Below are positions 43,871 to 52,113 of a DNA stretch of 64,000 bases, one piece after another (within the stretch, counting starts at the first letter, position 1; each line of letters starts with the position of its first letter). The DNA comes from Candidatus Thalassarchaeum betae. GTDB taxonomy: Archaea; Thermoplasmatota; Poseidoniia; Poseidoniales; Thalassarchaeaceae. The translations under genes were made by a program, and so were the position numbers. The stretch lies in the NCBI GenBank assembly GCA_003193925.1, contig PSPG01000012.1, positions 1 through 64,000 of the forward strand, given 5' to 3'. The notes under the pieces are model-generated. The model was not told where the DNA came from. It searched no databases and saw nothing but the letters and a program-made list of their open reading frames with translations.

Positions 43871-43990
43871 CTTTCTCTTCCTAGGATGCCGTCATGCGTA
43901 GGCTCGCAACCCCGCGATTCTGGTTAATGGGAAAGTCAATGGGGTCACCACCCCCCCAAACTGCACTACGGTGCGCATTCTACATTGATA

Positions 43991-43998
43991 CTAAATAG
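43991..43998 (+). promoter_or_regulatory. TATA box of the peptide transporter operon
   Basis: ctaaatag is centred about 26 bases upstream of the ATG at 44021, with more AT-rich sequence (tatact) following. This predicts a leaderless transcript for the first gene, as is common in archaea. Confidence 0.5.
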
Positions 43999-44020
43999 TC
44001 TATACTTGCGCGCACGACGT

Positions 44021-46276
44021 ATGAAGTCTAAGCTAACAGCAACACTTCTTTGCACGCTAATGATTGTATCAACTCTTGCCGGTTGTCTCGGCGGGGATGA
44101 TGGAGACGACGACCCAGACCCAACGATGGTCATGGGATGTACCTACGCGGACGCGACCAACTACAACGCCGACGCTACGATGGACGACGGATCATGTGAG
44201 TATGCGCCCGGTGAGGAGCCAGTTCTTGGCTGCACCAACGCGGGCGCTACGAACTACGATTCCGCCGCCACTCGTGACGACGGCTCGTGTACCTACGCTG
44301 AAACCGTGATGGGCTGCATGGACCCGGCTGCTAACAACCATAACGCAGATGCCGAAGACGATGACGGTTCTTGCGACTATGGTATGGCTCAGGGAGACAT
44401 TATGGCAGCCTACTCGGCTGGCGACATGTCCTTCGAGGAGGCTCTGTACGAGCTCGAGAAGTCGAGAAAGTGCCGTGAGCAGGGTTCCAACAACCCCTGT
44501 GAGATAGTCGAGATGTCGATTGGCGACGCCTCGACAATCGACCCCCACGATGCGTACGACTCGGCATCCGGAGACGTCATTGAGCAGGTCTACGACACGC
44601 TCTACCGCTATGCGGGTGACGGAAGCGGAAACGCCATCATCGAGCCCCGCCTCGCCACCGGCTATTCAGTCAGCGCCGACGGTCTGACCTACACGTTTGA
44701 TCTACGAGATGACGTGTACTTCAGCAACGGTGACCTGATGGAGGCCTCTGACGTTGTGTACTCATGGTGCCGCGTACTTGGCTACGGCTCGCCCGACAGC
44801 CACGTGGGCTGGATCCTAGAGCAGAGCTTCGACTGCAACGACGCTGATGGTAACCACAGCGACACTGGCGGCGAAAGTCTCACTGTCAACAGCGCGACCT
44901 CTTTCTCGGTCACACTGTTCGCTGAATCCTCGGCGTTCATCTCGACGATCGCCTACACGGTCGGCGCTGTGATCAACGCCGAGCTGTGCGAGGCCAACCG
45001 CGTCGATGCGGGCGGTGATGGCGACGACTACTGCCACGAGTGGATGGACGAGGCTCCGTTCGGAGCTGGGACCAACGCTTATCTGGTACAGTCTTGGGTC
45101 CGTGAGGACCGACTCGTCCTCGTGCCGAACTGGATGTACTGGGAGAGCGGTGATTACAACATCAACCGCCACACCGTGTCCATAGTTACCGAGGCCACGA
45201 CAAGGCTGCTCGCCTTCACCGACGGTGAGGTCGACTTCGGCAGCATCAACATCGAGGATCTGGTGAACTTCTGCGACAACCTGGAAGACAAGCCTAACGT
45301 ACAGTCCAAGGCAGGATACATCTGCAGTTACAGGGAGACCTTCACTACGACCCTGTCGGCCTTCAACCTACACCCGAAGGCCCTTGATGCAGGAGAGGAC
45401 AACACCAACACTGGTGCTAACTCGTCCCTCATCCTCAACCACGACTGCAGCGGCGACGGCACCAACGACTGCAGCGTCATGGAGGTAGGAGCGGTCCGAG
45501 CGGCCATCTCCTACGCGTTCGACTACGAGACCCACCGAAGGGACACGTACGACAACTCGCTGGCACCGCAGTACGGCCCGATCCCGACTGGCTTCCTGTA
45601 TGCGGATACCCAGTACGAGGTCTTCACCTACGACCTGGCCTACGCTGAGCAGCTCCTAGAGGACGCTGGCTTCATCCGCCAGTACGACTGCTCCTCGCTG
45701 AGCCGCAGCGGTGCGGCAGACGTGGTCGCTGAGGCAGACAGAGACGGCACCGAGTGCCGCCTGCCGAACATCCTGGGCGTAATGGCCAACGAGGGCAACG
45801 ACTACCGAATCGCCATGGCCGGCCAGCTCGCTGAGGCCCTGGGGACCATCGGAGTCGCCACCGCCGGAGATGCCAAGCCATGGGCAGAGTACCTGACCAT
45901 GTACTACACCAGGACATGGGACATCAGGTTCAGCGGATGGGCCCCTGACTACCTCGACCCCGACAACTACTGGTCGCCGTTCGCCGGCGGTTACTCCATC
46001 GGCGGCGACGCCTATGGTACGGGTTACGAGAACGCGGACGTCAACGCCGCCCTGCTCATTGGCAGGACCTCGCAGGACGACGCTACGCGCGAGCAGGCGT
46101 ACGTCGATGCCTTCGAGGCCTGGATCCTAGATCCCAACATGATCATCATTGGACAGTACAACGGCGTAGGTGTCAAGCACGACGACATCTGCAGCCCGGA
46201 CTGGGTCGCCATTGGGTCCGCCCACTGGTTCGACTACGACAAGCTGCCAATGGTCAAGTCGGCTCCTGCTGATTAA
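44021..46276 (+). CDS. Peptide ABC transporter substrate-binding lipoprotein with three DDGSC repeats
   Basis: 751 aa. Lipobox IVSTLAGC (Cys22) followed by an acidic linker. Then three tandem GC...(N)YN...DDGSC repeats cover residues 39-62, 70-93 and 98-120. From residue ~165 it is an SBP_bac_5/OppA-type periplasmic binding protein: EPRLATGYSVSADGLTYTFDLRDDVYFSNGD, DVVYSWCRVLG, GPIPTGFLY, ending FSGWAPDYLDPDNYWSPF. The repeats, thought to be adhesion or spacer modules, place the binding domain away from the membrane. First gene of a five-gene peptide import operon. Confidence 0.85.
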   Translation: MKSKLTATLLCTLMIVSTLAGCLGGDDGDDDPDPTMVMGCTYADATNYNADATMDDGSCEYAPGEEPVLGCTNAGATNYDSAATRDDGSCTYAETVMGCMDPAANNHNADAEDDDGSCDYGMAQGDIMAAYSAGDMSFEEALYELEKSRKCREQGSNNPCEIVEMSIGDASTIDPHDAYDSASGDVIEQVYDTLYRYAGDGSGNAIIEPRLATGYSVSADGLTYTFDLRDDVYFSNGDLMEASDVVYSWCRVLGYGSPDSHVGWILEQSFDCNDADGNHSDTGGESLTVNSATSFSVTLFAESSAFISTIAYTVGAVINAELCEANRVDAGGDGDDYCHEWMDEAPFGAGTNAYLVQSWVREDRLVLVPNWMYWESGDYNINRHTVSIVTEATTRLLAFTDGEVDFGSINIEDLVNFCDNLEDKPNVQSKAGYICSYRETFTTTLSAFNLHPKALDAGEDNTNTGANSSLILNHDCSGDGTNDCSVMEVGAVRAAISYAFDYETHRRDTYDNSLAPQYGPIPTGFLYADTQYEVFTYDLAYAEQLLEDAGFIRQYDCSSLSRSGAADVVAEADRDGTECRLPNILGVMANEGNDYRIAMAGQLAEALGTIGVATAGDAKPWAEYLTMYYTRTWDIRFSGWAPDYLDPDNYWSPFAGGYSIGGDAYGTGYENADVNAALLIGRTSQDDATREQAYVDAFEAWILDPNMIIIGQYNGVGVKHDDICSPDWVAIGSAHWFDYDKLPMVKSAPAD

Positions 46277-49361: not shown

Positions 49362-51047
49362 GTGTCGGATAACTTGCTCGAGATCGAGGGTCTCAGAGTC
49401 CACTTCGACACTCTGGACGGGCCAATTGAGGCTCTCCACTCCGTAGACCTGAAGGTCAAGCAGGGCCAGATAATGGGGCTGGTCGGTGAGTCGGGGTGCG
49501 GGAAGTCAGTCACTTCACTGGTGACGATTGGTCTGGCTACCTGTGATGTCGACGAGGGCAGCGTGAAGTACGAAGGCGAGGAAATGCTGTTCAGTGTTTC
49601 AGAGCACGACAAGAAAATCCAAGACGTCTCAGGACGGATAACCGTGCTCGGGGTATTGGCATCGATAGTAGCGGTTTTCTGGACGATTCTGATAAACCCC
49701 ATTCAGGGCATTACCCTCCTTGTCATATTCTTGTTCGTGGCAATAGTCTCGTGGATTTTTGGGTTTATCGCTAAGAGCGAATACCGACGCCATCAGAAGT
49801 TCATGCAATCGGTGCGCGGCAACAAGATCAGCATGATCTTCCAGGAGCCCATGACGGCCCTCAACCCGCTTTACACGGTGGAGAAGCAGATCTCCGAGGT
49901 GATGCGCGTGCACGACAGGCTTGTCGAGGCCGAGACTCCGCGTTACGTCAGAGTCGGTCAGGCACTTGTCAGCCCTGCCACCCTCATCCGCGACGCCTTT
50001 TCCTCACGGCCACAAGCGTCGATTGCCACCTCCTCCGTTCTCGCCTTTGTCCTCGTCGCCCATCTGTCTGGCTTCGCCGACTCCGCTGCAGAGGCAGTCA
50101 CCGCTCCCTTCGTCTTCGTCTTCAAGGATCTCTTCTGGGTCCTCATCGTCCTCCTTAGCGGATATCTTGTGAATTCACGGGCACAAATCGAGGCGTTGAA
50201 CGCCTTGTACCGGCCTCTAAAGTACGCCGCCCCTCAGGTTCCTCTTGTCTCCGCCGTGGCTTTGGTCATCTTCCTGATGCTCTGGATGCCGCTCTCCGCT
50301 TTCCTCGGGATGGCTGTAATCAGCACTCTCCTGGCCCTGCCGGCGATCATAGTCCTGGACTATCTGAGACTTGACCCCGCGCACACCCGACAGGTCATCG
50401 GACTCCTCGAGGAGGTCAGGATTCCGGATCCGAGCGCAGTTGTGAAGATGTACCCGCACGAACTCTCCGGAGGGATGCGTCAGAGGGTGATGATCGCCAT
50501 GATGATGGCTTGCGAGCCCAAACTGCTCATCGCCGACGAGCCGACAACCGCCCTCGACGTTACAATTCAGGCCCAGATTCTACAGTTGATGCGAGACCTG
50601 CGCGACGAGAAGGACACGGCTATCCTGCTTATCACACACGACTTGGGGGTTATCGCCGAGATGTGCGACGCAGTCACCGTGATGTACGCCGGGGCGGTGG
50701 TCGAGACAGGCAGTATCGAGGATGTTCTTTCTAAACCTCGGATGCCCTACTCAATCGGCTTGCTTCACAGCATTCCAACGATCGATGAAGAGGCTGGTCG
50801 CAGGGAGGTACTGCCTATCATCCCGGGCCAAGTCCCGGATCCCAACCTACACTTCGATGGTTGTAGGTTCCACCCTCGCTGCCCGTTCGCGGACGCAACA
50901 TGCATCTCAACTCCGCCACCGATGAAGGAGGTCGAACCCGGTCACTTCGCAGCCTGCCACCACACCAATAGGACGGAGAACGTTGCAGACGTGCAGGCCT
51001 CATTCGACGTTTTCGCAGCCGAGTACGATTTGGAAGGAGTTGCCTGA
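49362..51047 (+). CDS. Peptide ABC transporter ATPase, DppD/OppD type, with membrane-helix insertions inside the ATPase domain
   Basis: 561 aa from a GTG at 49362 with AGGAGGTG upstream. Walker A GESGCGKS (42-49), Q-loop [10 protein letters not shown] (160-169), signature LSGGMRQR (368-375), Walker [13 protein letters not shown] (388-399), H-loop ITHD (424-427) and the C-terminal oligopeptide-transporter cysteine motif ([14 protein letters not shown]) are all in order. Two blocks are inserted. Residues ~78-152 hold two predicted helices (94-112, 116-137) between Walker A and the Q-loop. Residues ~190-345 hold four (about 222-240, 249-270, 294-314, 315-336) between the Q-loop and the signature. 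Normal OppD is ~330 aa and soluble. The insert codons are somewhat AT-richer than the flanks. Confidence 0.88.
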
Positions 51048-51048
51048 G

Positions 51049-52113
51049 ATGCCAGATGACAGCAAGACCGACGAGGTCCTCATAGAGGTCGAGGGAATGA
51101 GGAAGTGGTTCCCGATCAAGAGCGGTATGCTGACTACGGTGAAGAGCCACGTCCGCGCAGTTGACGGGGTCGATCTGCAGGTAATGCGAGGTGAGACCCT
51201 CGGGATCGTCGGCGAGTCGGGTTGCGGTAAGACCACGCTGGGACGAGTCATACTGGGACTCACCCATATGACCGAGGGGTCGGTCCACTACGCCGGAGAG
51301 GACATCCGGATGATGACAAACAGAGACCTCAGGAGGAGGCTCCAGATTGTGTTCCAGGACCCCGGAGGCTCGATGAACCCGAGGATGTCGGTGCGATCCA
51401 TAGTGGGGGAGCCACTCCAGGTGAATGGAATGGCCCAGGGTGCCGAGTTGACGCAGAGGGTAGCTGATTTGCTTGATTCCGTGGGCCTCAAGCGCGAGCA
51501 CATGAACAGATTCCCCCACGAGTTCTCCGGTGGACAGAAGCAGAGGATCGCCCTAGCGAGGGCACTATCTCTGGACCCTGAGTTCATTCTCCTCGACGAG
51601 CCAACCAGCGCATTGGACGTGTCCGTTCAGGCCCAGGTTCTGAATCTGCTCGAGGAGATAAAGGCGAAGCACGGCCTCACTTTAGTCTTCATCACTCACG
51701 CACTCAACGTCGTCAACCACATTTGCGACAGAGTCGCAGTGATGTACCTCGGAAAGATCGTCGAGATTGCCAATACGAACGACCTGTTCAGTAAGCCAGC
51801 CCACCCATACACGCATGCTCTGATGTCGGCTATCCCAGAGCCCTCACTAGAAAAGGCCGCTAGGAGGAGGGTAGTTCTGAGTGGTGACGTACCCAGTCCC
51901 ACAGACCCTCCTCCGGGATGCAGGTTCCACACCCGTTGCCCCATCGCTGAGGAGGGGCTCTGCGATGTCGAGGAGCCGAAACTTGAGTCCATCGGTGAAG
52001 GCCATGAGGTCGCGTGCCACTTCCCACTGGGTCCCGGGATGAAACTCCCAATGCTAGACGATGCCGAGAACCCCTCTGAGGAAGACCACGGGCCGAAGAC
52101 GATCGTATTCTGA
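51049..52113 (+). CDS. Peptide ABC transporter ATPase, DppF/OppF type
   Basis: 354 aa from the ATG at 51049, 2 bases after the dppD stop, preceded by GGAAGGAGT. Walker [11 protein letters not shown]-loop [14 protein letters not shown], signature [15 protein letters not shown], Walker [18 protein letters not shown]-loop ITHAL. The C-terminal [15 protein letters not shown] is the oligopeptide-transporter cysteine motif. Unlike DppD it is of standard length without inserts. It completes the heterodimeric ATPase of the importer. Confidence 0.93.

Follow-up and report, generated by a model that had tools for sequence, protein, structure and literature searches.

Within a window of 64,000 nucleotides, the whole stretch of Candidatus Thalassarchaeum betae DNA analyzed here, we identified an operon that probably encodes a type I ABC peptide importer (SBP-DppB-DppC-DppD-DppF) with a membrane-integral motor subunit, DppD, whose transmembrane topology is predicted from two hydrophobic inserts in its nucleotide-binding domain (NBD). 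ABC importer motors are taught as soluble proteins that contact the permease through the coupling helix only. The system is a new variant within the Dpp/Opp importers, not a new type of system.

The dppD gene and its operon

The genes for a solute-binding lipoprotein, DppB, DppC, DppD, and DppF follow one another in this order on the forward strand (Table 1), and Pfam and NCBIfam place them in the peptide/nickel importer family. The importer set is complete, with a family 5 solute-binding protein, two BPD_transp_1 permeases, and a second NBD, and an EAA-type coupling helix (TM4-TM5) lies within the BPD_transp_1 matches of both permeases (DppB ..EDYVRTARAKG.., DppC ..EAARSVGA..). By homology the system would drive the uptake of peptides with ATP, and we take the transporter to be active, judging from its intact and conserved motor. 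The likelier start of the lipoprotein is an ATG at 44021, its translation holds a lipobox-like LAGC, and three Cys-rich repeats of the GCTYADATNYNADATMDDGSC type stand between the lipobox and the SBP_5 domain.

The dppD gene is a clean 561-codon frame that starts with GTG, with a Shine-Dalgarno-like GGAGGTGA upstream. An earlier note, made from the sequence alone, had described it as a DppD/OppD ATPase with all catalytic motifs in one frame, and this was confirmed: Walker A, Q-loop, LSGG, Walker B, and H-loop (H426) are all present and occupy invariant or near-invariant columns in an alignment with 40 bacterial OppD/DppD, where Cys 501, 507, 514, and 532 are invariant; the equivalent cysteines of Escherichia coli DppD bind a cluster (PMC12136057). 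Pfam finds ABC_tran and oligo_HPY, the latter above its cut-off (E 4.1e-17). Against the NCBIfam models for OppD (NF007010) and DppD (NF008246), the protein scores 309 of 575 and 284 of 541 bits, respectively, below the curated cut-offs, and the match is broken into three stretches because of the inserts. A soluble, cytoplasmic state free of membrane helices is the usual, though not formally defining, trait of DppD/OppD ATPases, from which the six predicted membrane-like segments of this protein depart.

Table 1. Coordinates of the importer genes and of the features of DppC and DppD in the window
Feature	Position	Strand	Basis
Family-5 solute-binding lipoprotein, 763 aa, first gene of the operon	43985..46276	+	SBP_bac_5 E 5.5e-51
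dppB, permease subunit, 394 aa	46419..47603	+	Pfam, NCBIfam
dppC, permease subunit, 585 aa	47600..49357	+	BPD_transp_1 in two stretches; NCBIfam Opp4C/Opp2C best
DppC insert, ~155 aa, residues ~286-442, between TM3 and TM4/coupling helix	48455..48925	+	
dppD, 561-aa DppD/OppD-type nucleotide-binding subunit with two hydrophobic inserts	49362..51047	+	ORF, motifs, Pfam, Foldseek
Walker A GESGCGKS, residues 42-49	49485..49508	+	Motif read in DppD; invariant or near-invariant alignment columns
Insert 1, residues 77-147, site 1 (Walker A to Q-loop)	49590..49802	+	Ends set by alignment to Rv1281c
Q-loop FQEP, residues 160-163, followed by coupling-helix contact segment T165...E179	49839..49850	+	
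Insert 2, residues 189-339, site 2 (inside helical subdomain)	49926..50378	+	Alignment to Rv1281c
ABC signature LSGGMRQR, residues 368-375	50463..50486	+	
Walker B LLIADEP, residues 388-394	50523..50543	+	
C-terminal [4Fe-4S]-type motif, Cys 501, 507, 514, 532, oligo_HPY region	50862..50957	+	
dppF, second nucleotide-binding subunit, no insert	51049..52113	+	ATG start at 51049 from sequence

Two hydrophobic inserts in the nucleotide-binding domain

The inserts, ~65 and ~148 residues in length, stand in place of 6 and 3 residues, respectively, of the Mycobacterium tuberculosis OppD (Rv1281c), and site 2 falls between the E179-bearing helix and the helix preceding the signature. Hydrophobic segments were called with hydropathy scales and hand-made thresholds, which gave two segments in insert 1 (93-111 at 49638-49694 and 116-134 at 49707-49763) and four in insert 2 (221-239, 252-270, 295-313, and 314-332). 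These agree with the two hydrophobic blocks (~94-137 and ~222-336) and the even helix counts that had been claimed from the sequence. On a published biological hydrophobicity scale, with a Gaussian weight of our own and calibration within the window only, the six segments score in order -1.1, -2.8, 1.0, 1.3, -1.3, and 0.1, the third and fourth thus being the weakest. Under the same scoring, the top six segments in the DppB permease range from -0.6 to +2.8, the best DppD stretch outside the six segments scores 4.1, and no segment under 4 turns up in DppF or in two further window proteins taken as soluble. The DppD segments therefore match permease helices in hydrophobicity and lie well apart from the soluble background. 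Searched alone, the inserts matched no Pfam family, inteins included, at the curated cut-off.

Conservation and selection

Matches at 1e-40 or better were found in 43 of the 148 genomes of the family to which the window belongs, and both inserts occur at identical sites in at least 32 of its genomes. We read 32 orthologue rows with both inserts, one of which (L036) is frame-broken downstream of them; this row, from L036:7755 onward on contig 37 of genome G007, is a second dppD copy, and an intact, divergent copy (L037) lies on another contig. All 32 orthologues show two hydrophobic segments in insert 1, never more or fewer; in insert 2, 31 show four to six and the last one three. Hydrophobic inserts were absent from all 58 OppD-type bacterial open reading frames and from 34 of 35 OppD from other families of the phylum, the single exception being a site-2 hairpin in sister family f3. 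Since the segments are kept in orthologues and absent from these two sets, they are not a product of chance. Beyond the family, 23 genomes of another family of the same order (f2) held distant ABC ATPases only, viral contigs searched with the insert yielded no relative, and the best 80 matches in a contig scan were all insert-free bacterial OppD, which served as controls and in the AlphaFold2 alignments.

Sequence and composition are conserved very differently in the inserts. For the three parts of the core, mean identity to the window DppD is 80%, 81%, and 74%, compared with 33% for both inserts; minima fall to 13% and 19% in the inserts while the core stays at 60% or more. Mean hydropathy nevertheless stays well above that of the core, at 1.4 to 2.3 in the hydrophobic part of insert 1 and at 1.7 to 2.5 in the last two helices of insert 2. 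For well-diverged pairs, dN/dS is ~0.1 to 0.5 in the inserts and ~0.01 to 0.09 in the core. The inserts are thus translated and constrained by residue type, not by letter, and this combination of drifting sequence, retained hydropathy, and dN/dS matches membrane helices in a translated protein and is at odds with a pseudogene, a spliced element, or a chimera. In most orthologues the insert ends carry net positive charge and the short hairpin loops are neutral or negative, in agreement with the positive-inside rule. Insert lengths differ even between close species, and the interval from Q-loop to signature varies freely from 192 to 291 residues.

Predicted structure and coupling geometry

AlphaFold2 modeled DppD as a retained NBD fold with helical inserts. 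Most of the core exceeds a pLDDT of 90 and superimposes on E. coli DppD with a TM-score of 0.85 to 0.88, and the best Foldseek matches are M. tuberculosis OppD and E. coli OppD/DppD (0.85 to 0.88 for the E. coli chains). Because the alignment consisted of 40 insert-free bacterial rows, the insert helices in the model rest on one sequence: insert 1 appears as two long helices (81-111 and 113-151, mostly pLDDT 75 to 88), and insert 2 as helices 205-214, 221-245, 250-269, 273-289, and 295-335, modeled with low to moderate confidence and with pLDDT mostly below 60 across the first two thirds of the insert.

In the E. coli transporter, T100, S101, N103, and E114 of DppD bind the DppB coupling helix, with a salt bridge between K243 of DppB and E114 of DppD, and the helical subdomain turns about 20 degrees upon ATP and DppA binding (PMC12136057); the note's placement of the NBD-permease contact at the Q-loop and helical subdomain was right in outline. 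The equivalent DppD residues in the window are T165, A166, N168, and E179, with identical spacing and one substitution (S101 to A166), and D291, T295, K299, H310, and N314 of DppB correspond, again with identical spacing, to E. coli D235, T239, K243, H254, and N258. With E179 as the coupling contact, insert 2 starts 10 residues beyond it, and the second helix of insert 1 stops just before the strand leading into the Q-loop. Helical stretches of ~12 to 17 residues between membrane segment and core could span the gap between NBD and bilayer.

A predicted membrane insert in DppC

DppC carries an insert of its own, with hydrophobic segments at 288-306, 332-350, 364-382, and 412-430 that AlphaFold2 draws, at low confidence, as helices 291-314, 331-346, 363-380, and 408-429. 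Its MR..D to W..Y.R interval is 192 residues in the window and 185 to 256 across type A loci, those whose DppD has both inserts, and about four extra hydrophobic segments were found in DppC at every readable type A locus. Outside the family, the same interval is 31 residues in most other Thermoplasmatota loci and up to 44 in the rest. DppF lacks an insert, as the note had said, with 39 residues from Walker A to Q-loop and 57 from Q-loop to signature. The note's picture of an asymmetric importer therefore holds for the motor pair and fails in one respect: asymmetry is not limited to DppD, because DppC has its four-segment insert at every readable type A locus.

Co-occurrence of the DppC and DppD inserts is mainly a single lineage event. 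A strict co-evolution of DppD hairpin and extra permease helices was rejected, because two f3 genomes (G173 and G491) keep the permease helices without the hairpin.

Inserts across the phylum

Enlarged intervals at site 1 or site 2 occur in 26 of the 35 OppD from other families, which makes the two sites a general insertion hot spot. Other Thermoplasmatota OppD (e.g., L187, L188, L199, and L206) likewise have, in most members read, large inserts at these sites; in contrast to those of the window's family, these inserts, outside the class, are hydrophilic (long charged helices or CxxC...CxxC pairs) and without hydrophobic segments, and the DppC interval is normal in nearly all loci read. The earlier note knew of no NBD with such an architecture. 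Its singularity stands for the membrane character and not for the sites, which are shared with the hydrophilic inserts of most other Thermoplasmatota OppD; the membrane version is a class-level specialization. ABC ATPase domains are known to tolerate large insertions between Walker A and signature in UvrA, Rad50, and SMC, which are non-transporters with DNA-binding, zinc, or coiled-coil inserts rather than membrane helices. As a separate observation, some other Thermoplasmatota (L187, L188, L189, and L190) have zinc-ribbon-like CxxC...CxxC modules at site 2 of OppD and extra helical inserts at site 1 of DppF, so that inserting modules into importer NBDs is a phylum-wide habit.

Intermediates exist in the form of a lone two-helix hairpin at site 2, found in type B, a divergent paralogue (G002 contig 100, G123, and G163), and in f3, which belongs to the same class. 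Type B lacks insert 1, has a short site-2 insert with the hairpin and has no internal insert in DppC, which in G123 bears four N-terminal hydrophobic segments instead. The DppC of the divergent paralogue (L172 and L033, reverse strand) includes an extensive extracytoplasmic region; that of L172 holds DxDxDG-type calcium-binding-like repeats in it and also has four N-terminal hydrophobic segments. In f3, most genomes (not G173 and G491) have the DppD hairpin at site 2, and DppB and DppC are read as a single open frame, separated by several hydrophobic segments; this frame of ~755 to 815 codons (L219:1923-4199, in reverse-strand coordinates, and L242-L250) is a possible single-chain permease. 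We take f3 to be, probably, Marine Group III and the window's family to lie within the Marine Group II archaea.

A quick tree of DppD cores without inserts, with SH-aLRT support only, places the insert-bearing DppD of the window's family in one clade (100*) and f3 in another (100*). The two f3 members that lack the hairpin fall with separate subclades that have it, which implies repeated gain or loss of the hairpin. The position of L172 and L173 within type A may reflect a shared variant C-terminus: in L038, L172, and L173, CRFCQRM...CPxC replaces another 14-letter stretch, and its occurrence in types A and B alike points to recombination at the Fe-S end.

Comparison with known systems

The E. 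coli DppBCDF transporter (PDB 8z1v, 8z1w, 8z1x, and 8z1y; PMC12136057) shares the operon content, NBD fold, heterodimeric motors, DppB-DppD coupling contacts, and C-terminal Fe-S cysteines of the window's importer, but its DppD is purely cytoplasmic and without inserts and its DppC has 6 helices as opposed to about 10. OppD of the M. tuberculosis OppABCD system (Rv1281c; PDB 8j5q-8j5t), the best sequence and Foldseek match, has the same NBD type and oligo_HPY, but is built of two fused NBDs without membrane inserts. The profile of Mycoplasma OppD (NCBIfam NF043079, MMSYN1_0167, 561 positions) is longer by ~220 positions in the stretch from Walker A to Q-loop (72 to 294), yet has nothing extra at site 2, a comparison made by profile positions. 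A literature search, weak as evidence in that it covered open-access papers only, found neither a description of an NBD with transmembrane inserts nor a study of this transporter from these archaea.

Proposed mechanism and alternative explanations

We are fairly confident that the DppD insert helices are transmembrane, as predicted. A two-helix hairpin would then leave the catalytic core between Walker A and Q-loop, and a four-helix bundle (up to six helices in relatives) would leave the helical subdomain 10 residues past E179, the contact for the DppB coupling helix. Hairpin and bundle would each enter the membrane and come back, so that ATP would still be bound and hydrolyzed by a normal cytoplasmic DppD-DppF pair. 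The DppD helices would most likely pack around DppB and, together with the four extra helices of DppC, form an outer ring holding the motor permanently on the channel. Hairpin 1 would be attached to the RecA-like side, with its second helix running toward the Q-loop strand, and the helical subdomain would carry bundle 2; through these two mounts, the ATP-driven rotation of ~20 degrees between the subdomains would reach the membrane as well. The reading we favor is that the membrane part tethers the motor and makes some mechanical contribution. More tentatively, and with doubt on our part, the hairpins could serve as a second, intramembrane coupling route, in which the rotation moves helices packed on DppB and the DppC extras.

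Two other readings keep the inserts in the working protein. The helices might not span the bilayer and instead be interfacial, re-entrant, or surface-bound, or form a hydrophobic helical domain against the flanks of DppB and DppC; the hydrophilic helical modules at the same sites in other Thermoplasmatota imply that a helical module there need not span, and AlphaFold2 draws 295-335 as a single long helix. We nonetheless judge this improbable, given that the segments score like true permease helices, that even counts and the charge pattern suit hairpins, and that hydrophobicity kept under sequence drift is typical of lipid-facing helices. Alternatively, the helices may span the membrane and contribute nothing to transport, as a tolerated, near-neutral accretion at permissive loop sites, which we hold to be possible but on the unlikely side. 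In its favor, the insert dN/dS is several-fold to about 20-fold above that of the core, a relaxation of selection that accretion would also fit, the length of the inserts varies freely, and modules of very different kinds occur at these sites across the phylum; against this stand the constant number of site-1 hydrophobic segments in 32 rows, hairpins in more than one lineage of the class, and the matching membrane insert in DppC. Because accretion shares the architecture of the tethered motor and differs on function only, our confidences in the two overlap.

That the inserts are removed before the protein works, as an intein, an intron, or by translational bypass, would account for their breaking a domain that is contiguous in relatives, but is very unlikely in view of their variable length between close species, their hydrophobic composition, the protein-level purifying selection, and the lack of an intein match in Pfam at the curated cut-off. 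Assembly chimerism or a pseudogene has a probability close to nil. In its favor, the genomes are of metagenome type, the related copy on G007 contig 37 is frame-broken, and genome G028 showed an apparent DppC-DppD fusion (L039), which proved to be an N-filled scaffold gap. The earlier note had named chimerism, frameshifts, and loss of ATPase motifs as grounds on which its reading could fall. Both attempts at refutation failed, as more than 30 genomes, each assembled independently, repeat the exact architecture with the inserts in unchanged positions, and the core, with its ATPase motifs intact, is under strong purifying selection.

Conclusions

If the intramembrane route exists, this would be an ABC motor acting on its channel from within the membrane as well as through the coupling helices. 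A conserved lineage with a motor domain crossed by transmembrane helices at two sites, and with a permease that has grown alongside it, would demonstrate that a functional NBD can accommodate membrane segments within its fold. It would also provide a natural experiment on the share of the coupling that has to pass through the coupling helix. The graded series from no insert over one hairpin to two plus four helices, with hydrophilic modules elsewhere, makes the evolution of this architecture traceable.
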